From: Xanthostigma xanthostigma
Lineage: Eukaryota; Arthropoda; Insecta; Raphidioptera; Raphidiidae
Direction of reading: 5' to 3'
Length of the DNA: 64,000 nucleotides
Assembly: GCA_963575645.1 (NCBI GenBank)
Contig: OY754465.1
Location: 53,963,901-54,027,900, forward strand
The notes under the pieces: generated by a model
Databases searched by the model: none
What the model saw: only the letters and a program-made list of their open reading frames with translations
What the model was told of the DNA's origin: nothing
Made by a program: the position numbers and the translations under genes
Shown: positions 3,575 through 59,698 of the stretch, piece by piece
Numbering within the stretch: the first letter of the stretch is position 1
How the letters are laid out: every line of letters begins with the position of its first letter

Positions 3575-4272
3575 TAGTTCATTGAAATGTTATATTTTTT
3601 GAGGCGAAAATTACATTTTTCAGAGGACGCAATTTTATTTTTTAGATATCAAGAAGGGGTTAGTGTAAAGTTAAATTCAAGTTTGTGGGGTCACAACCTT
3701 TGTCCCACGGCCGCCATCTTGGAAAAAGGAGTGCAAGTGGTTTCCATGGTTTATCTCACGAACTATAGGTCTCACCAAAAAAATTTCTAAACATTTTTTG
3801 TAGAAAATATAATTTCCTACAACTTTGGTTCAGTAACTTTTTGTCGTAGTATTCCCAATAGGTTTAATCCACGGTCATTTTCGAAATGACATAATTACTC
3901 TGTCCTCGCTTTTTTTGATGGACCAGGCTGCGGCTCAGGATCTTGTATATGAAAGCCAACATTGTATACATTTATAGGATCTTGTTGACCTTGTATAGGT
4001 TCTACGACAAAAAGTTACTGAACCAAAGTTGTAGGAAATTATATTTTCTACAAAAATGTTTAAAAAAATTTTTTGTGAGACCTATAGTTCGTGAGATAAA
4101 CCATGGAAACCACTTGCACCCCTTTTTCCAAGATGGCGGCCGTGGGACAAGGGTTGTGACCCCACAAACTTGAATTTAACTTTACACTAACCCCTTCTTG
4201 ATATCTAAAAAATAAAATTGCGTCCTCTGACAAATGTAATTTCAAATGTAACTTTTCAATGGACTAATCGAG
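3575..4272. mobile_element. Fold-back element, about 275-bp arms
   Basis: The left arm (about 3,575-3,852) and right arm (about 3,998-4,272) are reverse complements. Landmarks such as 'cacggccgccatcttgg' on the left reappear as 'ccaagatggcggccgtg' on the right. The spacer is about 145 bp. No transposase frame exists. The GC-richer 'aagatggcggc' motif in each arm resembles a YY1/Pho-type binding site. A transcript would fold into a long double-stranded hairpin. Confidence 0.85.
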
Positions 4273-7757: not shown

Positions 7758-8067
7758 ATAGATAGATAGATAGATAATTTATTTTTTGTGTGTGACCATA
7801 GATATGGTATACAAAAAGTCAATAATCCAATTAATAAAATACATAAGACAGGTTAAAATTATACAATTTGGACATTTAAGAAATCGTGATTGTTATAATA
7901 ACATTTAGCAGTTAAAAATTCTTTAATGTGTTTTTTAAATTTAGATAGTGGCAATTTTTGCACATTTATCGGTATTTTGTTAAAGATGTCGATTGCCATA
8001 TGGTATATGTTTTTTGCAATATAAGATTTAGTTGTTGCCGGTTTATATATTCTATTGTTATATAAAA
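7758..8067 (-). mobile_element. 5'-truncated LINE remnant with (TATC)n tail
   Basis: On the minus strand a coding remnant ends at 7,859. It is followed by a short 3' untranslated stretch and a (TATC)n run near 7,760-7,780, which is typical of non-LTR retrotransposon tails. The 5' side stops abruptly at a repeat A copy (8,068). Confidence 0.65.
7859..8067 (-). pseudogene. Reverse-transcriptase C-terminal fragment (non-LTR LINE)
   Basis: One frame is open for about 68 codons to a TAA at 7,859-7,861. It includes MAIDIFNKIPINVQK, then LSKFKKHIKEFL, and a final tyrosine- and asparagine-rich stretch. The pattern (F/Y)NKLP, some residues, FK..LK..L and then a stop is characteristic of the extreme C-terminus of jockey/CR1-like LINE polyproteins. 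There is no upstream polymerase domain and no start codon of its own, so this is a 5'-truncated relic. The exact clade cannot be assigned by eye. Confidence 0.6.
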
Positions 8068-8403
8068 CTAGCGGTCCCGCCCGGTTTCACCCGAGTGCAA
8101 AAGAACGAATGGGTGGGGAGGGAGATGAGTACGCACATTCATCCTAGTTTACCGAGATGAATGTTGTGTCCAAATTTCATGATGATCGGAGTTACCGTTC
8201 AAAAGTTTTTGCTGGACGGACAAATTTTGAGTTACATTTTGCAACATTTTTCATTGATGCTTCGCTCTTATTGGTCGTAGCGTGATATTTATATAGCCTA
8301 TAGCCTCTCTCCAACAAAAAAAAAATTCAATTCGAACCAGTAGTTCCTGAGATTAGCGCGTTTAACCAAACAAACTCTTCAGCTTTATATATTAGTATAG
8401 ATA
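8068..8403 (-). mobile_element. Repeat A, copy 1
   Basis: Runs from 'ctagcggtcccgcccggttt' to 'agctttatatattagtatag'. This full-length repeat of about 335-350 bp recurs at 9.2, 17.4, 19.2, 40.1 (broken) and 60.3 kb. It has no coding frame. Its conserved ends and lack of inverted termini suggest a retroposed 3' segment (RTE-like or SINE-like), but the class is inferred. Confidence 0.75.
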
Positions 8404-9028
8404 TAGATTAGGATTAGTACAGTGCGCTCGGCTAAAGAAGACCGGTGACGAAAGGGCGAGAAGTCGCTGATGTGTGCCATTGCGTCCCTTATTGCATAGA
8501 AGTGGTTCCAGGATCATTACCTTTTACTTATATAAAATGCAATAAGGTCATAGTACATTCCATAGACCAGTTTCTTTTTAAAGCGTAGTTTTCCCTGCAC
8601 CGCGTACCCCGCAAAAGTGCCTACTCACCCTCCTTAAGCTCGGAAACATTTTCGTAAGCACTGTTTCCTGTTCGATAGTCCCGAATATGAGTTGTTAGTT
8701 AAAGTTGACGTAAGAACAAATAAATAAGGGCCCATACATCAATCTGAAGAGACGTGCGTGAGGGTAAAAATGCGTATATAGAGTTTTAGGTGCGGCCTGA
8801 CACAGCTGTTGTAGGGTCGAGCTTGTTCAACACAAATTAAAAGTCCTTAATGAAAGTATTTAAACGTGAAGGGGTCACTCGATCATGAATGTCCACTCAA
8901 ATTGGCGTAATCAATTCAAATAACCGGACGCGGCCGTTTAAAATCCCGACAAAGTCGTAATCAGTGAATGAAAATGTCGATGTATAATTGGAAGTTTTAA
9001 AGACTTAGCCGCGCTTTTCATTTTCGCG
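8404..9028. other. Unassigned, moderately GC-rich
   Basis: It contains blocks such as 'ccctgcaccgcgtaccccgc' and 'aagggcccatacatcaatctg' that look like the worn interior of a mobile element. I could not identify a frame or boundary. Confidence 0.35.
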
Positions 9029-9204
9029 GTCACTGCACACGAGGCCTGGGTTGCCGAAAATTTTGCAGGTTTTCTTGATTGTTTTATGTGCTCGCTTTAC
9101 ACGAGACGTCTTTTTAAGCTTGTTTTGTACGTAGGTTACGTGCGCGCGCAGTGACAGAACGGTAACAAAAGTGGACGTTTATTGTCTCTGAACAGAACAC
9201 ACAT
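9029..9204. mobile_element. Family C MITE, copy 3 (left part)
   Basis: Begins 'cactgcacacgaggcctggg' and runs through 'acgtgcgcgcgcagtgacag' to 'tctgaacagaacacac'. The right half is missing. A repeat A copy follows. Confidence 0.7.
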
Positions 9205-9228
9205 TTATTTTTCGGTGTACTTTTAAAT

Positions 9229-9571
9229 CTAATACTAATATATAAAGCTGAAGAGTTTGTTTGTTTGGTTGGTTGAACGCGCTAATCTCAGGAACTATGG
9301 GTTAGAATTGAAAATTTGTTTTTCGTTGATTAGCCTATTTATCGAGGAAGGCTATAAGCTATATAATATCACGCTACAACCAATAGGAGCGGAGCATCAA
9401 TGAAAAATGTTGCAAAATATAACTCAAAATTTGTCCGTCCGACAAAAACTTTTGAATGGTAACTCCAATCACCATGAAATTTGGACACAACAGTCATCTC
9501 GGTAAACTAAGATAAATGTGAGTACTCATTCGTTCTTTTGCACCCGGGTGAAACCGGGCGGGACCGCTAGT
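9229..9571 (+). mobile_element. Repeat A, copy 2
   Basis: Runs from 'taatactaatatataaagct' to 'cgggcgggaccgctagt'. It is full length and in the opposite orientation to copy 1, about 830 bp away, so the two could form a large hairpin. Confidence 0.8.
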
Positions 9572-9687
9572 TATCAATACGAATAAATAAAATTACAAGC
9601 AGTTTTTGGGTGCAATATACCTACTTAGACTGAAGCCATTTTTAAAAATTTAAACATTTTTTCTAAATGGTAAATTAATTCGCTTAC

Positions 9688-11664: not shown

Positions 11665-12420
11665 TATCGGTCAGTTGGATGAAACTTTGGGCGTTTGTTG
11701 ACCATCGTCAAGGGATTGTTGGCGCAAACCCTCATAACATTTTTTTTACCATTTAAAATCATTTACTCATAGAAATTTTGCTTGAACGGTTGATCGGAAT
11801 TAAGCTTTTCATTTGTTGACCTTGGTAGGACACAAAATACCGTTAAAAGTATTCGTCCCTGCAAATACCCCTTGCACCCTTCATCTCAAATCTTTCCCCT
11901 CGCCTAAAAACGGTTCGCGCTCTCCCAACGCTATTTTTAAAGCTAGAGGGTTCTGGTAAACGCCAAATGAAAGACAAAGAATCAGACAACAGATCCGTCA
12001 GGCGAATTTTTTGAAAAAAAATTCCTGAAAAAACTTACAACCTTTTGAAAAAAATAATAAGTTACGTAATATTTCAGTTTTTCAAAAAATTCGCCTGAAA
12101 GATCTGTAGTCTGATTCTTTGTCTTTCATTTGGCGTTTACCAGAAACCCTCTAGCTTTAAAAATAGCGTCGGGAGAGCGCGAACCGTTTTTAGGCGAGGG
12201 GAAAAGATTTGAGATGAAGGGTGCAGGGGGTATTTGCAGGGACGAATACTCTTAAAGCAAAATTCGTATGAATAAAAGACTTAAAACAGTAAAAACTTTA
12301 AGCCCCCATAAAATCATGTTTGGGGGATTTGAGCCAAAAATCCCTTTCATGTCCTACCAAGGTCCACAAATGCCCAAAGTTTCATCCCGATCGCAGATGA
12401 CCAGTATTCGAAACTCTACC
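11665..12420. mobile_element. Fold-back element with long inner arms
   Basis: The inner arms, about 11,845-12,020 and 12,075-12,256, are near-perfect reverse complements; 'cctcgcctaaaaacggttcg' on the left returns as its complement on the right. Outer parts such as 'ccaaggtccacaaatgccc' on the right pair more weakly with 'ttgttgaccttggtagg' on the left. The spacer is about 55 bp. There is no frame. Confidence 0.85.
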
Positions 12421-12811: not shown

Positions 12812-14011
12812 CTAGCGGTTCGTCCCAGATTCACCCGAGTGCGATAGATATCATTTTGCAAAATGTATTTCGTTTGCGGCCCGCTGTCTGAACTGATAGC
12901 TTTGAGCAAATTCTACCAGATTTGCTCCTGAACTAATAGCTTTGAGCGAATTCTAATAGATGTCGCTACTTGGTACTAGAACAGTTTTTTTTTGTTTGCT
13001 TCTGAACTAATAGTTTTGAGAGTAAATTCTACCAGAGGTCGTACATGTTACTAAAACACTTTTTTCGAGAAAACACCGTAATTTTATACAAAATATTTAA
13101 TAAAAACTATCCTATAGCGTAAGTTGCACCAAGCAAGACACATTTACAAAATTTCGTTAAAATCTGTTCAGTGGTTTCGGAGATTAGCGCGGCCAAAATT
13201 GTGACACGGGAATTTTATATACACTGACCGGCAAAAAAAACGCAACACCTAAAATGATGACCAGTTTCAAATTGCAATAACTTTTGAATGTATCGCTCGA
13301 TTTGAATGAGTTTTTTTTTATTTGAAAGGTCTATGCTTTTTCAATGTTTCTATGTACAAACTCAGCCCATTTTGGCGCTCTTCAATTTCGGCTGTAAAGA
13401 ATAACGCCAATGCGCGTTTTCTTCATACACTTTGAAGCTTGCTGTGGGGTAACTTTGGTGTTAAAAGCAATAGAAACATGAATAAAAAAAATTGGTTGTC
13501 TGTAAAGTCGGTTTACGGACGATAGTTTTACGTGATAACGTATTCCGCTCGAATATCATATTTAATAATACATAACCTAAATTTTAGTAGCTGTCAAACT
13601 TGGGCCGATCGTGCGCGGAACATGACACATTTCGGAACGTGACACTTTTTCGTGCATGCAGCCGGTGTTTCATCAATTTATAAGACGTTATCACGTCAAA
13701 AAGACAAATGCTCAGAACAGACGAGGCTACAAGTTTCTTTTGTTTAAAATTAATTTCTTTTGTCGGTGTACCCCGCAGCAAGCTTCAAAGTGTATGAAGA
13801 AAACGCGCATTAGCGTTATTCTTTACAGCCGAAATGGAAGAGCGCCAAAATGGGCAGAGCACGTACAGAAATATTGACAAAGCATAGACCTTTCAAGTAA
13901 AAAAAAACTCATTCAAATCGAGCGATACGTTCAAAAGTTATTGCAATTTGAAACTGGTCATCATTTTAGGTGTTGCGTTTTTTTTGCCGGTCAGTGTATA
14001 TATAGAAGATA
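12812..14011 (+). mobile_element. Repeat B, copy 2, split by a TA element
   Basis: Starts 'tagcggttcgtcccagattc', carries the 'gaactaatagctttgagc' markers, and resumes as 'tatatagaagata' after the insertion at 13,222-13,996. The undisturbed copy at 54,796-55,213 shows the empty site in its tail. Confidence 0.8.
13222..13996. mobile_element. Tc1/mariner-type MITE, 775 bp, long TIRs
   Basis: 'cactgaccggcaaaaaaaac' at the left is matched by 'gttttttttgccggtcagtg' at the right, and both ends abut TA. The TIRs run about 240 bp. Near the inner ends 'tgaagcttgctgtggggta' pairs with 'taccccgcagcaagcttca'. The central unique part is about 280 bp with no transposase frame. TA target duplications and CACTG termini fit a Tc1/mariner-derived non-autonomous element. 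Confidence 0.9.
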
Positions 14012-17039: not shown

Positions 17040-17170
17040 AATATTCAAATCTTTGATTAACTACTGAATAGAATTATTGATCAATTTTTTCAGACTATAT
17101 ATTGACAAAAATTATAATTCAATAGACGACGTTTTGGTTCGGATTTGGATCTTCTTCAGAAACAAAGCCC
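17040..17170 (-). repeat. Single arm of the hammerhead-like family
   Basis: The block 'caattttttcaga' to 'ggatttggatcttcttcag' matches one arm of the palindrome at 56,942-57,182. On the minus strand (17,128-17,159) it reads CTGAAGA, A, GATCC, loop, GAACC, AAAA, CGTC. This keeps the layout of a hammerhead core, but stem II is unpaired and the GAAA box is changed, so it looks inactive. Confidence 0.5.
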
Positions 17171-21626: not shown

Positions 21627-22118
21627 AAAGGACCCCGCACAAACCTTATGGGATTTGGTTCTCGGTTAAATTGATCGAAAATGGTTTTATTTTAAAGTTT
21701 AAAGGTCACTAAAAAAAGTGTCCATGGGCGCATAGCCTAAAAATCAAAGATTTTTAGCTATAGATATGTTAAGCGAGATTTTAGATATAGGGATATCAAT
21801 TGAGTTCACAAACATATTTCATGTTCAACTTTTGTGCTTTTTTTAGAAATAGAAAAAAAGTCGAAAACTAGGTAATGTTGGAAGGTGTCATTCTGTATAA
21901 AATAATAATGTCATATTCGGATTCAGCGCACTCGAAAACATATTTCTAGAACATAGGATTTTTTAGGATTGTGAATTCAATGGATATCCCTATAATCTGT
22001 TGTTAGGCTATGCACCCATAGACTTATGAACACTTTTTCTTAGTGACCTTTAAAATATAAATAAAACCATTTTCGATCAATTTAACCGAGAACCAAATCC
22101 CATAAGGTTTGCGCGCTG
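21627..22118. mobile_element. Fold-back family D, copy 1
   Basis: The left arm starts 'aaaggaccccgcacaaacct' and includes 'tatgggatttggttctcgg'. The right arm ends with the complement 'ccgagaaccaaatcccata'. The arms are about 200 bp each. Four copies exist in this window (also 34.9, 50.6 and 56.8 kb), all palindromic and none coding. Confidence 0.85.
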
Positions 22119-29096: not shown

Positions 29097-29916
29097 CAGT
29101 GGCGGCACGTCAACATTTTAAATGCAGGGTCAATCGGCGGTACCTCCTGTAACGGACTAGGAAAGGCGGTGGGGGGAGGGGGGGTTAATTAAATAATAAA
29201 TCACATCCATGTTTAAGATGTTTTAAAACACTGATTACAATATACACTGCAACACTAGTCACTACTGCCATAAGCCGTGTGTCGTGTATCATGTATGCAC
29301 GACGTACGTATAAATGCTCATTTGTATATACTAATGTGCTGACGTCAAATGCAGCTCAAAGTCAATCTAAATAACACGCTATAACTTGTGGGTCAAGAGT
29401 TGCAGGCTGTACAAGGGAGTCTGATGATGATGTCTTAATAAATGTGCTGCTTCGAAGCGCAGAACACCGCCTGAACGCAAAAAAGTCTGCTACACAGAAC
29501 ACATACAAGTTTCGTGGTCTGCCAGTGGCTTTTAAACTTTAGCGTTGAATTTGTAACTATTGTACTATGTCGTATAATATTAAATTGAAGTGTCTGTTTG
29601 TCATGTCAAAATAACAGCTTTTTACTAAATGCATATGAAAGGTACTTTTAACAAAAAACAGTTTTTAAAATGTTTGTCTGTTCCGGCTAATCTTCGGAAC
29701 GACTGGACCGATTTTGACGGAACTTTCACTGGTTGATAGCTAATGTTATAAGGAGTAACTTACGCTAAAAAAATAAAAAAAATTCTTTTCGTAAACTCTG
29801 CGAACCAAACAAACATTTTGCCGCGGAGAGCAGCTAGTTCATTCTAAAATTATGAAGTACCTATAAGATTTTGGTTGTTCTGCAGCTCTGCAGTGCTCAT
29901 AGAGGAACCGCCACTG
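29097..29916. mobile_element. Possible hAT-like element, 820 bp
   Basis: The left end 'cagtggcggcacg' and right end (reverse complement 'cagtggcggttcc') are inverted. The flanking 8 bases match only in part (ttaatagt / attattgt). A fossil repeat ending 'cgcggagagcagctagttc' (29,670-29,840) lies inside. Confidence 0.4.
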
Positions 29917-34935: not shown

Positions 34936-35426
34936 AAGGCACAAACCTTATGGGATTTGGTTCTCAGTTAAATCGATCAAAAATAGTTTAAAAAAGTGTC
35001 TATGGGCGCATAACCTAAAAACTAATAGATTTTTGGTTACAGATATGTTTAGTGAGAATTTAGATATAGGGATATCTACTGAATTCACAATCTTAAAAAA
35101 TCCTAAGCTTTGGAAATATGTTTTCGAGTGCGCTGAAACCGAATATGACACTATTATTTTATATAAGATGACACCTTCCAACATTATATACCTTGTTTTC
35201 GACTATTTTTCTATTTCCAAAAAAATGCACAAAAGTTGAACATGGAACATGTTTGTGAATTCAATGGATATCCCTATATCTAAAATCTCGCTAAAATATC
35301 TGAAGCTAAATATCTATTGGTTTTTAGGCTATGCGCCCATGGACACTTTTTCTAAATGACCTTTAAACTATAAAATAAAACCATTTTCGATCAATTTAAC
35401 CGAGAATCAAATCTCATAAGGTTTAC
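34936..35426. mobile_element. Fold-back family D, copy 2
   Basis: The left arm starts near 'cacaaaccttatgggatttg'. The right arm ends 'atctcataaggttt'. The inner landmark 'ttagatatagggatatc' is shared with the other D copies. The arms are somewhat shorter than in copy 3. Confidence 0.8.
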
Positions 35427-36204: not shown

Positions 36205-37630
36205 ATCTATGGCCATATTCGATTCATTTGTTCTTCAGATAACTATTCCTCCGATTAAATAGCGATAATTCAATTCAACAACCATAATTACTGCAGGTAT
36301 AAATCTATTCTGTCTTACTTCCAGGGTATAAATATTTATTCGTCTGATAAAATAATAATAGCCCCCACATAGATCATAATACCTAACCTATAAACGTCAA
36401 GTATTATATCTACAGTTGCTCTGTTGTTTATTGACCTTTTGTGAATTAGTGAATAGTTGTAAAACATTAAAATTAGTGGAAGTTTTGTGTGCAATTGGGT
36501 TAGGATAAACCATTATTATTTTGTGAAACTTTTGATGCTTACACTAACGCCATAGGTCGGTTTTTTGGGTGAACGTCAAAATACTCAACAAAAAGAGCAA
36601 GGATTATTGTGCAGTGTATATGTTACCGTTAAAACCCGTTTTTAGTTAGAACGCGTATTTACTAGTTAAAACTAGTTTTCACTAAACGCCCTCGTTAAAA
36701 CTAGTATTTCCTAGTAACAGCTAGAATTTACTGATTTAGAAGATTGATTTTTAGGTAAAACTAGTTTTAACTGTGAGCGTTAGACAAAACTAGTAGTAAC
36801 TAGAAAATTGCGTTTCAGAGAATTGATTTAATAGAATGAAGCCTTGATTAAAAAATAAACATTATTACATGTTATTTATTAAAATATTTATTGAGAACAT
36901 TCGTGAATAGTAACATCTGAACAACGTTGATATTAATTAGTATTTAGTAATATAAAAATATCATTCTTCCTTATGGAGATCAAACATCCATATTGGCAAC
37001 TTTTATTAAAGTCTTACACATTTAACAAAGACATTAATAGCGAACAAAAACAATTAGTACTCCTCTTAGTCATTTGAAAAAGAAACATTATATGATAACA
37101 TATTATTTAATACAATATTTATTTAAATATTTACGAATTGATACATCCCAAACAAATTTAATATTTAAAGTTAGTAACATAACACAGTAAAAGAACATTT
37201 TTCCGTATGAAGATCAAACAACCATATTGGCAATTTTAATAGTGATTTTCTTTTTTTTCATGTTGATCAATCTGTAATATCCTTGTTAATAATGCCTCTT
37301 TCCATCGCGTCCCTTGGTTTATATCACATTACGCGACCTCTAAACTTTGTGGAACCAATTTTAACTGCTTGGTGCCGTTAAAACGCGTTTTGACTAGTTA
37401 AAACTAGTTTTAACTGATATTCATTTTTACCAACAGTAAATTCTAGTTTTAACGAGAGCGTTTAGTGAAAACTAGTTTTTACTAGTAAATACGCGTTGTA
37501 ACTGAAAACGGGTTTTTACGGTAACATATATTTATTCTTTACCTAATTTTTCTGTCTGATATTTTGTTTTGTGAATTGAAAGTAATAAATTTAGTAAACT
37601 CTATCTTTAATAGTGTTCGGTAAATACGGG
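36205..37630 (-). mobile_element. Repeat G, copy 2, split by a long-TIR MITE
   Basis: Inverted relative to copy 1 at 1.7-2.2 kb. 'ttgtgtgcaattgggttagg' and, beyond the insertion, 'ttgtgaattgaaagtaataa' both match copy 1 in order. The MITE at 36,621-37,526 interrupts it. Confidence 0.75.
36621..37526. mobile_element. MITE with long TIRs built on an ACTAGTTAAAACTAG motif
   Basis: The left end 'tgttaccgttaaaacccgtt' and the complement of the right end 'tgttaccgtaaaaacccgtt' are near identical. The TIRs run over 100 bp and repeat 'actagttaaaactagtttt' variants. Both ends abut TATA. The corresponding site in repeat G copy 1 lacks the element. The interior is AT-rich and has no transposase frame. 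Confidence 0.9.
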
Positions 37631-40069: not shown

Positions 40070-40644
40070 CTAGCGGTCCCGCCAGGTTTCACCCGGATGC
40101 AAAAGATCGAATGGAGACATGAGTACTACGCACATTCATCTTATTTTGTAATACTACTTTTTAGGTACCTATCGTTGTAACAGTTTTTAAATGAGCTATT
40201 AATTAGATTTATTTAATTTTAATTAGTCATAATAAAATTTTAAAAAATTGAAATGTATAAGCCTTAGGAGAAAGCAATGTAGAAAATAAAAAAAATAAAA
40301 ATATATTCGCCGACGTGGGGCTTGAACCCACGACCCTGGCATTAAAAGTCTCATGCTCTACCGACTGAGCTAGCCGGGCTTGTGAACGTGAGGCGTTAAT
40401 ATTGCAATATTTAGTTAGGGCATTTCACCTGATAATATTTGTCGGACGAACAAATTTTGAGCTACATCTTGCAACATTTTTCATTGATGCTCCGCTCCAA
40501 TGTTTCGTAGCATAATATTATATAGCCTATAGTCTTCCTCGATAAATGGGCTATCCGATAAAAAAACATTTTTCAATTCGAACCAGTAGTTTTTGAGATT
40601 AGCACGTTCAGCCAAACAAACAAACTCTTCAACTTTATATATTA
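40070..40644 (-). mobile_element. Repeat A, copy 5, broken
   Basis: The right half (from 'tagcggtcccgccaggtttc') runs to about 40,145 and the left half resumes at about 40,441 ('cggacgaacaaattttgagc') to 40,644. The middle 70 bp or so of the repeat is replaced by about 295 bp of other DNA that carries the tRNA-Lys-like gene. Confidence 0.75.
40307..40379 (-). tRNA. tRNA-Lys(TTT)-like gene, probably a pseudogene
   Basis: On the minus strand 'gcccggctagctcagtcggt' gives the acceptor and D arm with the A box, 'gagacttttaat' gives the anticodon loop CTTTTAA (anticodon TTT), and 'gtgggttcaagccccac' is an intact T arm. The anticodon stem has two mismatches (second and third pairs), and the last two acceptor pairs fail. 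T-runs follow downstream and could serve as a pol III terminator. It is probably a decayed gene or a SINE head. Confidence 0.6.
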
Positions 40645-41702: not shown

Positions 41703-44700
41703 TTAGTCCGCCATATTGAATTTAGAGTAACGTCACTTTATTTTTCGAGTTATTCTCAGCAAGCCCTTTCATTTGATACCCATATTGTAGGAAAGCATAA
41801 AAAACTTAAGCCGCCATTATTAGAAGTCCGCCATATTAGATTTAGGATGACGTCACTTTATTTTTCGAGTTATTCTCAGCAAGCCCTTTCATTTGATACT
41901 TATATTGTAGGAAAACATAATAAACTTAGTCCGCCATCTTTAGAAATCCGCCATATTGGATTTAGAGTGATGTCACTTTATTTTTCGAGGTATTTTCAGC
42001 AAGCCCTTTCATTTGATACCCATATTGTAGGAAAGCAAAATAAAATTAGTCCGCCATTTTAGAAGTCCGCCACATTGGATTTAGAGTGACGTCACTTTAT
42101 TTTTCGAGTTATTCTCAGCAAGCCCTTTCATTTGATACCCATATTGTAGGAAAGCATAATAAAATTAGTCTGCCATCTTTAGAAGTCCGCCATATTGGAT
42201 TTAGAGTGACCTCACTTTATTTTTCGAGTTATTTACAGCAAGCCCTTTCATTTGATACCCATATTGTAGGAAAGCATAAAAAACTTAGTCCGCCATCTTT
42301 AGAATTTCGTCATATTGGTTTTAGAGTGACGTCACTTTATTTTTCGAGTTATTCTCCGCAAGCCCTTTCATTTGATACTTATATTGTAGGAAAGCATAAT
42401 AAACTTAGTCCGCCATCTTTAGAAATCCACCATATTGGATTTAGAGTGATGTCACTTTATTTTTCGAGGTATTTTCAGCAAGCCCTTTCATTTGATACCC
42501 ATATTGTAGGAAAGCAAAATAAAATTAGTCCGCCATATTGGATTTAGAGTGACGTCACTTTATTTTTCGAGTTATTCTCAGCAAGCCCTTTCATTTGATA
42601 CCCATATTGTAGGAAAGCATAAAAAACTTAGTCCACCATCATTATAAATCCGCCATATTAGATTTAGACTGACGTCACTTTATTTTTCGAGTTACTCTCA
42701 GCAAGCCCATTTGATACCCATATTGTAGGAAAGCATAATAAACTTAGTCCGCCATCTTTAGAAGTCCGCCATATTGGATTTAGAGTGATGTCACTTTATT
42801 TTTCGAGTTATTCTCAGCAAGCCCTTTCATTTGATACCCATATTGTAGGAAAGCAGAATAAAATTAGTCCGCCATTTTTAGAAGTCCGCCATATTGGATT
42901 TAAAGTAACGTCACTTTATTTTTCGAGTTATTCTCAGCAAGCCCTTTCATGTGATACCCATATTGTAGGAAAGCATAATAAAATTAGTCCGCCATTTTTA
43001 GAAATCCGCCATATTGGATTTAGAGTACGTCACTTTATTTTTCGACTTATTTTCAGCAAGCCCTTTCATTTGATACCTATATTGTAGGAAAGCATAAAAA
43101 ACTTAGTCTGCCATCTTTAGAAGTACGCCATGTTGGATTCAGAGTTACGTCACTTTATTTTTCGAGTTATTCTCAGCAAGCCCTTTCATTTGATACCCAT
43201 ATTGTAGGAAAGCATAATAAAATTAGTACGCCATTTTTAGAAGTCCGCCATATTGGATTTAGAGTGACGTCACTTTATTTTTCGAGTTATTCTCAGCAAG
43301 CCCTTTCATTTGATACCCATATTGTAGGAAAGCATAATAAACTTGGTCCGCCATCTTTAGAAGTCAGCCATATTGGATTTAGAGTGACCTCACTTTATTT
43401 TTCGAGTTATTTTCAGCAAGCCCTTTCATTTGATACCCATATTGTAGGAAAGCAAAATAAAATTAGTCCGCCATTTTAGAAGTCCGCCACATTGGATTTA
43501 GAGTGACGTCACTTTATTTTTCGAGTTATTCTCAGCAAGCCCTTTCATTTGATACCCATATTGTAGGAAAGCATAATAAAATTAGTCTGCCATCTTTAGA
43601 AGTCCGCCATATTGGATTTAGAGTGACCTCACTTTATTTTTCGAGTTATTTACAGCAAGCCCTTTCATTTGATACCCATATTGTAGGAAAGCATAAAAAA
43701 CTTAGTCCGCCATCTTTAGAATTTCGCCATATTGGTTTTAGAGTGACGTCACTTTATTTTTCGAGTTATTCTCAGCAAGCCCTTTCATTTGATACCCATA
43801 TTGTAGGAAAACATAAAAAACTTAGTCCGCCATTTTTAGAAGTCCGCCATATTGGATTTAGAGCAACGTCACTTTATTTTTCGAGTTATTCTCAGCAAGC
43901 CCTTTCATTTGATACCCATATTGTAGGAAAGCATAATATTATTAGTCCGCCATCTTTAGAAGTCCGCCATATTGGATTTCAGTGACGTCACTTTATTTTT
44001 CGAGTTATTTACAGCAAGCCCTTTCATTTGATACCCATATTGTAGGAAAACATAAAAAACTTAGTCCGCCATTTTTATAAGTCCGCCATATTGGATTTAG
44101 AGCAACGTCACTTTATTTTTCGAGTTATTCTCAGCAAGCCCTTTCATTTGATACCCATATTGTAGGAAAGCATAATAATATTAGTCCGCCATCTTTAGAA
44201 GTCCGCCATATTGGATTTCAGTGACGTCACTTTATTTTTCGAGTTATTTACAGCAAGCCCTTTCATTTGATACCCATATTGTAGGAAAGCATAATAAAAT
44301 TAGTCCGCCATCTTTAGAAGTCCGCCATATTGGATTTAGAGTGACGTCACTTTATGTTTCGAGTTATTTACAGCAAGCCCTTTCATTTGATACCCATATT
44401 GTAGGAAAGCATAAAAAACTTAGTCCGCCATCATTAGAAGTCTGCCATATTGGATTTAGAGTAACGTCACTTTATTTTTCGAGTTATTCTCAGCAAGCCC
44501 TTTCATTTGATACCCATATTGTAGGAAAGCATAATAAAATTAGTACGCCATTTTTAGAAGTCCGCCATATTGGATTTAGAGTGACGTCACTTTATTTTTC
44601 GAGTTATTCTCAGCAAGCCCTTTCATTTGATACCCATATTGTAGGAAAGCATAATAAAATTAGTCCGCCATATTTAGAAGTTCGCCATATTGGATTTAGA

Positions 44701-44710
44701 GTGACGTCAC
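41703..44710. repeat. Satellite array, 120-bp monomer, about 25 copies
   Basis: Each monomer contains 'cactttatttttcgagttat', 'agcaagccctttcatttgat', 'acccatattgtaggaaagca', 'ttagtccgccatctttagaa' and 'gtccgccatattggatttag'. Monomer length is 117-120 bp. Because 120 is divisible by three, the plus strand stays open across several monomers (up to about 165 codons), which is not evidence of a protein. Many monomers join at a GTGACGTCAC palindrome. Diagnostic variants recur at offsets of 1,417 bp and 239 bp, showing higher-order duplication. Confidence 0.97.
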
Positions 44711-48957: not shown

Positions 48958-49243
48958 AGGGGAAACGGGCTCTTAAGAATGAACTGCACTTATCGTATAG
49001 TGAAAAATTGTCATTATTATTATTATTATCATGGGTGAGTTTTGGCAATATTTTGGGTGCATTGTGACAAATTGTTGGATGAATTTTTACAATTTTTTTG
49101 ACGAATTTTGAAGATTTTTTAGGTCAATTTTGAATGAATTTTGATAATTTTTTTATTAAATATTAACAGATTTTTGGATGAATTTTGAGTATTTTGCCTT
49201 TTTTAGAGTGAATTTTGACAATTTGTTGAGTTACTTTATAGTA
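48958..49243 (+). mobile_element. hAT-like family J, fragment with minisatellite
   Basis: 'caggggaaacgggctcttaa' begins it. The interior repeats units like 'tgaattttgacaatttgttg' (49,030-49,230). The right end is cut by a pogo-like element at 49,244. Confidence 0.55.
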
Positions 49244-49576
49244 CAGTAGAACCTCTGTAAATTGAACTTCAAAGGAGACGTCAAAAATTTGAGTTATAGT
49301 GTTTTCAAATTACGAAGAATTTCAATTTAGGCAATTTTTGTAAGGAACTATTTGATTTGCTTTGAGTTGCTATGGTCGAGATACAGAGGTTCAAATTATT
49401 TTTTCGAGTTATGGAGAGATAATATGTACGGAAATGGCTTGTAGGGGCTCATTAATTATTTCGACCTATAGAGGTTGAGATTTCGAGTAATGGAGGTAAA
49501 GGGAAAGGAACAAAATATCTTTTTGAGTTTTGGAGGTTTTCAACTTATCGGGGTTCGACTTAAATAGGTTCTACTG
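49244..49576. mobile_element. pogo-like MITE, 333 bp
   Basis: Ends 'cagtagaacctctgtaaatt' and (reverse complement) 'cagtagaacctatttaagtc' abut TA on both sides. The CAGTAGAACCTC terminus is typical of pogo/Tigger-type elements. No coding frame remains. Confidence 0.85.
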
Positions 49577-49683
49577 TATTATTATTGAAATTCGAATTAA
49601 AAATAACGATAGAGTATTTGGAAAGAATTCCGTGGCATAATTAGGATCGAAAATGAAGCAATACTAAAAATTTTATTAAACTT

Positions 49684-49739
49684 GCATTTAATACTGACGT
49701 TTCGATACGTTTTGTATCATCTTCAGAGTTTTCAAATGC
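49684..49739 (-). ncRNA. Hammerhead-ribozyme-like motif (minus strand)
   Basis: It is the exact reverse complement of the motif at 49,771-49,826, so the two arms carry the same fold on opposite strands. Confidence 0.5.
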
Positions 49740-49770
49740 TGTCACAACAATATACTGATAACATGTGACA

Positions 49771-49826
49771 GCATTTGAAAACTCTGAAGATGATACAAAA
49801 CGTATCGAAACGTCAGTATTAAATGC
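49771..49826 (+). ncRNA. Hammerhead-ribozyme-like motif (plus strand)
   Basis: The sequence folds as follows: GCATTT with AAATGC and ACT with AGT form an interrupted stem I (internal loop GAAA/ATT). CTGAAGA is a CUGANGA core box. GATAC pairs with GTATC around loop AAAAC as stem II. GAAA is the second core box. ACGT, a palindrome, forms a minimal stem III with the cleavage triplet GTC. One extra T lies between the core box and stem II, so activity is uncertain. Short stem III hammerheads of this type are known from Penelope-like elements and retrozymes. The family link is inferred. Confidence 0.5.
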
Positions 49827-49898
49827 AAGTTTAAAAAAATTTTCAGTATTGCTTCATTTTCGATCCTTATGCCACGGAATTCTTTCCAAATACTATAT

Positions 49899-50552
49899 CA
49901 TTAACTTCAATGGATCACAGTTACTTTATTTATTGAATAGAGTCAAATTCAATTAAAAATAACTTTTAAATCCCAATTTAAAGATTCTTAGTCTAACAAA
50001 AAAATCGCCTAAGACTTTGACTGCCATAACAAAACGCCTATATTCGATCAGAATCTTTTGTAATTTAGCAGTTTTATAATTAAAACAATACAATATTTGG
50101 CGTTTCCAGATTATTTGAACATATTGTAGGAATTGAACGACAACACAATTTTAATGGTAAACAAATGAAGACAGGCACAGCAGCGGTGTTGTTATGGTGG
50201 ACTGGGGGAGAAGTCAGGCGCGAATGAAAGAAGAGGGCAACGTCTGGACTGACAGCACCTGGCGAAAAGGTATGCGGCCAACAGCACGGCCGGGGCATCC
50301 ATTTACTTCTTGCAATATCCGTCTATCTTGATGAAGTCCACCATATTATCTACAAGCGAGACAACACATGCGTCCATTAGGTGGGTACACGATGGCAGAT
50401 GTTTTGTGGATCGTCATCTCATCGATATGTTATTATGACGGTTTGGCGTACCTATTTCGAAATAATGTATATCGAACAATACCCGCTTTTGTTATTGTTT
50501 TAAAAAAAATAATGGTCGCCAAGTGGTCGAAATTGAGACCGTAATTCATTAA
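49899..50552. other. GC-rich island with conflicting short frames
   Basis: From 50,150 to 50,310 the sequence is markedly GC-rich for this window. The plus strand has an acceptor 'tggcgtttccag' near 50,108 and then about 38 open codons ending at a TGA. The minus strand has ATG at about 50,299 with a hydrophobic start (MDAPAVLLAAYLFA) that could be a signal peptide. Only one of these can be real, and none is proven. A host promoter or exon is the main alternative to an unrecognised element. Confidence 0.3.
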
Positions 50553-51013
50553 AGGATCCCGCACACCTTATGGGATTTGGTTCTCGGTTAAACCAATAGA
50601 TTTTTAACTACATCAGATATGTTTAGCGAGATTTTAGATATAGGATATCCATTGAAATCACAATCTTAAAAAATCCTAAGCTCTAGAAATATGTTTTCGA
50701 GTGCGCTGAACCCGAATATGACATTATTATTTTACCTATACAGAATGACACCTCCCAACATTATCTAGTTTTCGACTATTTTTCTATTTCTAAAAAAAAG
50801 CACAAAAGTTTAACATGGAACATGTTTGTGAATTCAATGGATATTCCTATATCTAAAAACTCGCTAAACATATCTGTAGCTAAAAATCTAGTGGTTTTTA
50901 GGCTATGCGCTCATGGACACTTCTTCTTAGTGACCTTTGAACTATAAAATAAAACCTTTTTCGATCAATTTAACCGAGAACCAAATCCCATAAGGTTTGT
51001 GCGGGATCCTTTT
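50553..51013. mobile_element. Fold-back family D, copy 3, best preserved ends
   Basis: It starts 'aaaggatcccgcacacctta' and ends with the complement 'gtgcgggatccttt'. The arms are about 200 bp with internal landmark 'agatataggatatccattg'. No coding. Confidence 0.85.
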
Positions 51014-56767: not shown

Positions 56768-57545
56768 AAAGGACCCAGAACAATACTTATGGGATTTGGT
56801 TCTCGGTTAAATTGATCGAATATTGTTTTATTTTATAGTTTAAAGGTCACTAAGAAAAAGTGTCCATGGACGCATAGCCTAAAAACCAATAGATTTTTAG
56901 CTACAAATATGTTTAGAGAGATTTTAGATATAGGGATATCCTCAATAAATAAAATTAGCGACCAATTTTTTAGACAAATATATTAACAAAAAATATAAAA
57001 ATTAATGCATTAACGTTTCGGTCCGAATTTGGACCTTCTCCAGAACTGAAGAAGATCTAAATCAGGACCGAAACGTTAATGTATTAATTTTTATATTTTT
57101 TGTTAATATATTTGTCTGAAAAATTGGTCGATAATTTTATTTATTGAAGAGTTCTGATCAGACGTTTATCAAAGATATTTGAATATAGGGATATCCATTG
57201 AATTCACAATCTTAAAAAATCTTAAACTCTAGAAATATGTTTTCGAGTGCGCTGAATCCGATTATTTTAGACAGAGTGACATCTTGCAACGATCCCTATA
57301 GTTTTCGTCTATTTTTCTATTTCTAAAGAAAAGCACAAAAGGTGAACATGGAACATGTTTGTGAATTCAATGATATATTCTTATATCTAAAATTACGCTA
57401 AACATGTCTGTAGCTAAAATCTATTAGCTTTTAGGCTATGCGCCCATGGACACTTTTCTTAGCGACTTTTAAACTATGAAATAAAACCATTTTCGATCAA
57501 TTTAACCGAGAACCAAATCCCATAAGGTTTGTGCGGGGTCCTTTT
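56768..57545. mobile_element. Fold-back family D, copy 4, with nested palindrome
   Basis: Starts 'aaaggacccagaacaatact' and ends with the complement '...tgcggggtccttt'. The arms match the other D copies. An insert at 56,942-57,182 lies in its centre. Confidence 0.85.
56942..57182. mobile_element. Palindromic retroposon-like insert with 14-bp duplication
   Basis: 'atatagggatatcc' occurs at 56,928-56,941 and 57,183-57,196, flanking the insert. Other D copies have it once. The insert is a hairpin of two arms of about 98 bp (56,945-57,043; 57,047-57,145) that meet at a 3-bp centre. Each arm carries a hammerhead-like core (minus strand 57,012-57,043; plus strand 57,046-57,077). The minus-strand one keeps stem II (GGTCC with GGACC) and GAAA, but its first box is CTGGAGA. 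The plus-strand one has CTGAAGA but a broken stem II. Confidence 0.75.
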
Positions 57546-59267: not shown

Positions 59268-59698
59268 CAAATAATAATAATGCATTTAACGTACGTTTCT
59301 CGACTTTATGTCATAACAGACGCCATTCGCACCATTACTATTTTCCATCTATCACACTTCCCGTTATTCTCTACACTTTTAAACTTCCACTTAATCAATA
59401 GCAATGGGCGAATGAAGGAATTTTAGGACATTAGGATAAGGGAGGCAAATTTTGAGCATATGCGAGTTTGACAGGTAATCGGCCATGGCTTTGAATAAGG
59501 AACCATCTCGATATTTATCTGGAATTATTGAGGGACACTATGGAAAACCGCAACAAGATGGCTGGTACAGGAATTACCGTTTCTCAGCGAGAGGTAGCAG
59601 GAAAAAATCCCGGCTATATCTGCCCTCGCCGGGATTCGAACCCGGTACATCCCGAATTCGAGTCAAGTGCTATCACCGCTATGCCACCACGCTCGGTC
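59268..59698 (-). mobile_element. tRNA-headed SINE, copy 3, most complete
   Basis: On the minus strand the head (59,698-59,630) reads 'gagcgtggtggcatagcggt' (A-box region) and 'ccgggttcgaatcccggcga' (B box, 59,632-59,645). The body includes the complement of 'aataaggaaccatctcgata', and the tail is (ATT)n at 59,268-59,280. The 430-bp length and order head-body-microsatellite are typical of SINEs. It depends on a LINE partner that is not visible here. Confidence 0.85.

Follow-up and report, generated by a model that had tools for sequence, protein, structure and literature searches.

How did a near-perfect palindrome with a hammerhead-like fold in each of its arms come to lie in the genome of Xanthostigma xanthostigma, and is that fold, which carries one base too many before stem II, a ribozyme or the relic of one? 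We studied the locus in a window of 64,000 nucleotides, the whole stretch of DNA that was analysed, which has a G+C content of 33.5%. The answer that we consider probable is that the palindrome is a short non-autonomous insertion of a Penelope-like element (PLE), with two hammerhead-bearing pseudo-LTRs head to head that would have arisen from two facing starts. The window also holds a tRNA-Lys(TTT) gene (40307–40379, − strand) and a weaker tRNA-like match (59628–59687, − strand), which, as a guess, may be a tRNA-derived SINE.

Hammerhead-like folds in the arms of a palindrome

An earlier note on this DNA had described a hammerhead-like fold in both palindrome arms at 49684–49826, present on either strand. 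The sequence is as described on both strands, and the − strand copy, read from 49739 to 49684, is identical to the + strand copy. It is the extent of the element that needs revision, the insert being really 337 bp long (49608–49944). The parts of the fold are as follows.

49771–49826, + strand: hammerhead-like fold of the right arm, predicted cut after 49814
49684–49739, − strand: identical hammerhead-like fold of the left arm, predicted cut after 49696 (reading the − strand)
49771–49776 and 49821–49826, + strand: outer helix of stem I in the right arm, GCAUUU/AAAUGC
49781–49783 and 49815–49817, + strand: inner helix of stem I in the right arm, ACU/AGU
49784–49790, + strand: core CUGAAGA
49791, + strand: extra U before stem II
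49792–49796 and 49802–49806, + strand: stem II, 5 bp, GAUAC/GUAUC
49807–49814, + strand: GAAACGUC, the stretch 3' of stem II
49790–49792, + strand: ATG consisting of A9, the inserted T and the base that opens stem II; its frame stops after 10 codons

All of the CUGANGA and GAA core residues are present, with one U inserted after A9, and an internal loop separates the inner (three-pair) from the outer (six-pair) helix of stem I. On this sequence evidence we class the fold as hammerhead-like and as a putative ribozyme. The core of each arm ends in GAA followed by the palindromic ACGU and the GUC site, which bears out the earlier proposal of a stem III of the dimer type. No stem III is formed in cis, the ACGU having no loop with which to fold back; a second copy of the RNA has to supply the other strand.

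Folding calculations qualify this picture. For a 63-nt arm the most stable predicted structure is built on a CUGA/UCAG helix (−14.9 kcal/mol) and is not a hammerhead, the hammerhead pairs without stem III reaching only −9.2 kcal/mol; stem II itself is strongly favoured. Shuffled sequences folded as well as the arm in 2 of 200 cases for the 63-nt segment, 3 of 200 for an 81-nt segment and 22 of 200 for a 52-nt cut. The whole insert, treated as an RNA of 337 nt, is predicted to form a hairpin of about −213 kcal/mol. Since such a transcript would fold into a long hairpin rather than a ribozyme, cutting from the present locus is unlikely; the parental RNA may have cut itself as a dimer through ACGU or with the help of a protein. 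The same RNA was also considered as a microRNA precursor, a candidate that we rejected: many Rfam microRNA families gave matches at E values up to 10, all below their gathering scores, as is to be expected of any long hairpin.

How often would such a fold turn up by chance? A loose hammerhead pattern had three matches in the 64-kb window, two of which were the arms of this insert, as against an expectation of 0.07, and a strict descriptor (the core and at least four pairs of stem II) had one match per strand. We counted the two arms as one event, not two. In Markov-simulated 64-kb windows the descriptor of core and stem II was matched 5 times in 1500, or about 0.003 times per window, and just one of these five simulated matches also had a stem I (three inner and at least six outer pairs).

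Two palindromic inserts built on the same plan

The alignment of the arms and a flanking direct repeat delimit the insert, referred to here as the first, as follows.

49608–49944, no strand assigned: the entire insert of 337 bp, composed of two pseudo-LTR copies head to head and a one-sided tail
49608–49746, − strand: left (inverted) pseudo-LTR arm
49747–49763, no strand assigned: spacer of 17 nt at the inverted junction
49764–49899, + strand: right pseudo-LTR arm, with 49899 pairing with 49608
49900–49944, + strand: tail of 45 nt, on the right side only
49588–49607, + strand: left copy, 20 bp (AAATTCGAATTAAAAATAAC), of a probable target-site duplication, with a one-base indel relative to the right copy
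49945–49963, + strand: right copy, 19 bp, of the probable target-site duplication

Within the insert the arms are identical in 133 of 136 aligned columns, with one 3-nt indel; a repeat search reported them, around the 17-nt spacer, as a stretch of 107 nt at 97% followed outwards by one of 45 nt at 89%. The direct repeat that brackets the insert is AAATTC(G)AATTAAAAATAAC. Its score was matched by 19 of 20,000 samples of the same geometry when a satellite and the locus itself were excluded, all 19 coming from two 500-bp places, and by 24 of 17,577 random flank pairs with the satellite excluded. With repeats kept in, the corresponding figures were 19 of 5000 random pairs and 814 of 20,000 same-geometry samples, the latter inflated by the satellite at 41.7–44.7 kb. 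The first 12 nt of the tail match the left copy of the duplication, inverted, at 8 of 12 positions. Because the inverted similarity thus continues into duplication and tail, the position of the boundary can be fixed only to within about 12 nt, and a longer arm with a shorter tail may be the true arrangement.

Two neighbouring features may be recorded here. The satellite is a 3-kb array (41705–44710) with periods of about 120, 359 and 479 bp, and immediately to the left of the first insert lies a 345-bp element (49238–49582) with 30-bp inverted ends (ATAGTACAGTAGAACCTC...), which we take to resemble those of pogo/Tigger-type MITEs.

The pattern search of the window led to a second palindrome; it is listed here together with a decayed single copy related to it.

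56942–57182, no strand assigned: second insert, same plan, 241 bp, arms identical at 94 of 102 positions, 2-nt spacer
57148–57182, + strand: tail of the second insert, 35 nt, on the right side only
56928–56941 (left) and 57183–57196 (right), + strand: 14-bp target-site duplication of the second insert
57012–57043, − strand: left core, with an extra A, stem II (GGUCC/GGACC) intact and A6 changed to G (CUGGAGA)
57046–57077, + strand: right core, with CUGAAGA intact, an extra A and one broken pair in stem II
17067–17161, − strand: third copy, single and decayed, related to the second insert; core at 17128–17159, with GAAA changed to AAAA

The second insert is not a complete hammerhead, since its arms meet at C3 and the 5' strand of stem I is absent; nor does it have an ATG at the stem II position. 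It sits in a MITE-like repeat, and its flanks, when joined, align to all five of the stretches of other copies that were compared, four of which span both flanks and one of which covers the duplication and the right flank. This empty site in other copies of the host repeat shows that the second insert was inserted with a 14-bp duplication. The host repeat belongs to a MITE-like family of inverted repeats, represented in the window by at least four copies (21636–22115, 35020–35310, 50560–50930 and 56768–57544), the last of these being the target.

Outside the core, we found no convincing similarity between the family of the first insert and that of the second. As the two share sequence only around the core, their common plan rests on structure. 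Another view, which we regard as unlikely, is that the palindromes are DNA elements of the foldback or MITE type that contain a hammerhead-like string by accident. The window is rich in such architecture, with 18 inverted-repeat pairs of at least 60 nt within 1500 bp, several of them MITE-like; yet a hammerhead core and a one-sided tail are common to two palindromes of different sequence, the target duplications measure 14 and 20/19 bp, and core and stem II would arise by chance at the low rate given above. Two further palindromes with short spacers (1147–1294 and 11893–12204), read by eye, contained no hammerhead-like string. Other long inverted repeats, with arms 87–97% complementary, lie at 3608–4242, 8053–9585, 13216–14002 and 36617–37530 and are probably foldback or MITE elements.

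Less probable still is that a fragment of a retrozyme, a small tandem hammerhead retroelement, was rearranged into a palindrome. According to passages of PMC7229834, animal retrozymes share with the inserts their small size, AT-richness and non-autonomous nature as retroelements; their hammerheads are of type I, and some work as dimers. The same passages describe them as direct, head-to-tail tandem repeats, whereas the inserts are inverted, and comparison of the window with itself yielded for the arm of the first insert its inverted partner and otherwise no match longer than about 22 nt. In addition, the lack of a closed helix III and the ATG at stem II fit a PLE.

Stem II and the extra base before it

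We built a covariance model from 12 viral hammerhead cores, none of them from the window; the model is mostly sequence, with four pairs. It ranked both arms of the first insert top in the window (25.1 bits, E = 1.2e-4), followed by the cores of the second insert, right (17.1 bits, E = 0.014) and left (15.9 bits, E = 0.029). A gapped match at 29421–29434 (11.9 bits, E = 0.3) ranked above the third copy, whose core scored 11.3 bits (E = 0.44).

Stem II was then compared across five cores: two from the second insert, one from the first, and those of the third copy and of locus L022, which is discussed below. Among these five cores, three of which are close relatives, changes on both sides were seen in four of the five pairs. 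In all, 88% of the stem II cells were paired (3 of 25 unpaired), as compared with 12–56% in slid registers, and the covariation score was reached by 3 of 500 shuffles of the five cores. The compensatory changes support stem II as an RNA structure, five sequences, three of them closely related, being few for the purpose.

They also bear on the idea, to which we give very little credence, that the core was conserved as coding sequence and not as RNA structure. One frame through the right arm and the tail is indeed open for the 53 codons shown. Against it, the 54-codon reading had no homologue among candidates limited to proteins of similar length, and a one-base difference inside loop II between the first and second inserts shifts the frame while the pairing of stem II is largely kept.

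The extra base had led to the earlier suggestion that the fold may be a non-cleaving relic. That argument does not hold as it stands, for three-stem hammerheads with an extra base at this position recur elsewhere. We ran extra-base patterns over IMG/VR and GTDB and obtained 79 matches from three scans, of which 18, all in viral contigs, passed for stems I, II and III; since the extra base was what the pattern had been designed to favour, the count speaks to occurrence, not frequency. By scan, 2 of 17, 0 of 44 and 16 of 18 matches passed. One of the 18 loci (L001) is doubtful and looks like chance, and four are duplicates. At least five pairs of stem II were present in 4 of the 61 matches of the first two scans, and we take most of the remaining matches of these scans to be chance. 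An earlier, first pattern scan of viral contigs had given zero matches, and a pattern for the canonical form gave 30 matches, some of them duplicates, that all passed the stem tests.

The viral extra-base hammerheads resemble the cores in the window in having CUGANGA, one extra base, a stem II that starts with G-R-Y, and GAAACGUY. Unlike the window cores, which have only ACGU, they either close stem III (type I) or adopt a type III fold. De la Pena and Flores reportedly described, in 2001, an extra nucleotide in the catalytic core of the hammerhead of Chrysanthemum chlorotic mottle viroid. That base is reported to be an A located between A9 and helix II of a type III ribozyme; the likeness consists in the one extra core nucleotide, and the difference is that the source is a viroid, not a retroelement.

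Searching with Rfam, the test suggested in the earlier note, was without power to refute the fold. No hammerhead match to the first insert was returned at E values up to 10, but the same search at gathering score also missed the known sites of 15 out of 15 canonical viral hammerheads, returning for these loci a single hammerhead match, which lay elsewhere. Nothing was found at gathering score in 11 extra-base loci, among them L022, which is not three-stemmed. For one extra-base viral hammerhead searched up to E = 10, the best hammerhead match (16.2 bits) was in another register. As a side claim, we tentatively suggest that hammerheads with one base inserted before stem II form a widespread set, found in eukaryotic retroelements and viral contigs and unseen by current covariance models. 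The corrected argument is that a single extra base before stem II is not, by itself, the mark of a dead hammerhead.

Some of the viral contigs have features of their own. Two extra-base hammerheads in the same orientation lie 360 bp apart in L078 (12920–12954 and 13280–13314). In L012 a type III hammerhead (3709–3763) carries an additional G before stem II, and a nearby ORF of 584 aa resembles, by eye, a large terminase. L089, a contig of 4.4 kb, has a canonical hammerhead at 2642–2675 and Twister-P5 matches at 1318–1377 and 1810–1867.

A probable Penelope-like origin and a possible mechanism

What commends a PLE origin is what can be read directly in the window: inverted arms, one-sided tails, direct repeats, a core with compensatory changes in stem II and, for the second insert, an empty site in other copies of its host repeat. 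Penelope/Poseidon-type PLEs likewise have head-to-head inverted pseudo-LTRs, a tail on one side and a target duplication, and this combination is present in both inserts, with the boundary less certain in the first. They also resemble the first insert in having a minimal hammerhead without helix III, an ATG at stem II and a cut about 25 nt past it. PLE hammerheads are, according to PMC6155905, usually minimal and without helix III. The ATG, of which the extra T is a part, is found only in the first insert, where, counting from 49790, the predicted cut after 49814 falls 25 nt on, the arm ends at +110 and the tail at +155; on an equivalent count the two ends in the second family lie at about +96 and +131. 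In these respects the first insert matches known inverted PLE pseudo-LTRs with minimal hammerheads.

Similar arrangements occur in the Penelope families of Adineta vaga, for which passages of PMC3846280 describe inverted pseudo-LTRs (head to head being the commonest arrangement), junction palindromes, an optional 31-bp tail on one arm and short target duplications (8–10 bp in the examples). The examples described there include, with their pseudo-LTRs, an ORF, a host gene or some captured sequence, whereas the inserts have only a short spacer between their arms. Unlike Penelope/Poseidon PLEs, the inserts keep no coding region, and the tail of the first measures 45 nt as against 30–40 nt in published cases. 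The extra nucleotide before stem II may be a further difference. Since its frame from the ATG stops so early, the first insert encodes no PLE protein; an ORF with reverse transcriptase and GIY-YIG domains is not to be expected in an insert so short and truncated, and the 20 ORF pieces scanned, out of 56 of at least 80 aa in the window, contained neither domain and gave only sub-threshold, unrelated Pfam matches. We therefore class the palindrome as a PLE-derived non-autonomous insert and not as an autonomous PLE. Telling against a PLE are the one-base indel in the direct repeat of the first insert and, in the second, the missing 5' strand of stem I, the change of A6 in one arm and the missing ATG.

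Titles and abstract openings in the literature yielded no PLE insert that is palindromic, lacks coding sequence and has a hammerhead in each arm; subscription journals were thinly covered, and we make no claim that such inserts are unpublished. A term search of PMC12910113 did not find the word "hammerhead".

How could a PLE leave a palindrome that has a single tail? A PLE reverse transcriptase/endonuclease supplied in trans would cut AT-rich target DNA on both strands, and each cut end would prime synthesis from a separate internal position on a pseudo-LTR RNA. From the ATG overlapping the hammerhead, the distance to these starts would be about 110 nt in one case and about 155 nt in the other. 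Both cDNAs would then meet and be joined at their 5' (hammerhead) ends, and the resulting palindrome would bear a tail on just one of its sides. In this scheme we infer the involvement of a PLE enzyme, the pair of facing starts and the self-cutting of the parental RNA. According to passages of PMC11167929, both target strands are cut and extended in vitro, the later steps being yet to be validated, and insertion in vitro is unaffected by hammerhead mutants.

A different route, also from a PLE, is that a single cDNA or antisense template folds at its end and primes itself. Such snap-back has been proposed for Penelope palindromes in PMC3846280, which, in the passages concerned, favours self-priming on an antisense template, and a hairpin loop could account for the 17-nt spacer between the arms of the first insert. 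The arm copied in this way should, however, run through the tail into the target, and in both inserts the inverted arm stops near the start of the tail; moreover, the 2-nt spacer of the second insert is tight for a simple hairpin loop. We hold snap-back to be possible but doubtful. Two separate starts explain simply why the tail-less arm ends, in both inserts, about where the tail begins.

A hint about the template comes from L022 (3205–3433), in which an extra-base hammerhead core lies between head-to-head arms of 64 nt. The start of its inverted arm lies 3 nt beyond the predicted cut, a single, isolated case hinting that the template may be RNA that has already been cut. L022 comes from a MAG labelled Pseudomonadales (isolate MH-Pat-SR, presumably a sponge sample), and is eukaryote-like, with 35% G+C, microsatellites and few ORFs; its presence in a bacterial MAG is likely to reflect host contamination of the bin.

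Returning to the two facing starts, we put forward, tentatively and with less assurance than the PLE origin itself, that one-tailed palindromic PLE inserts are direct fossils of two independent starts of reverse transcription, one per cut strand, at two start sites on the RNA, with the cDNAs joined at their hammerhead ends. Palindromic inserts bear on the insertion mechanism of PLEs. If their arms end at two different, element-specific positions, they would provide in vivo evidence for two facing starts that could be counted in any genome.
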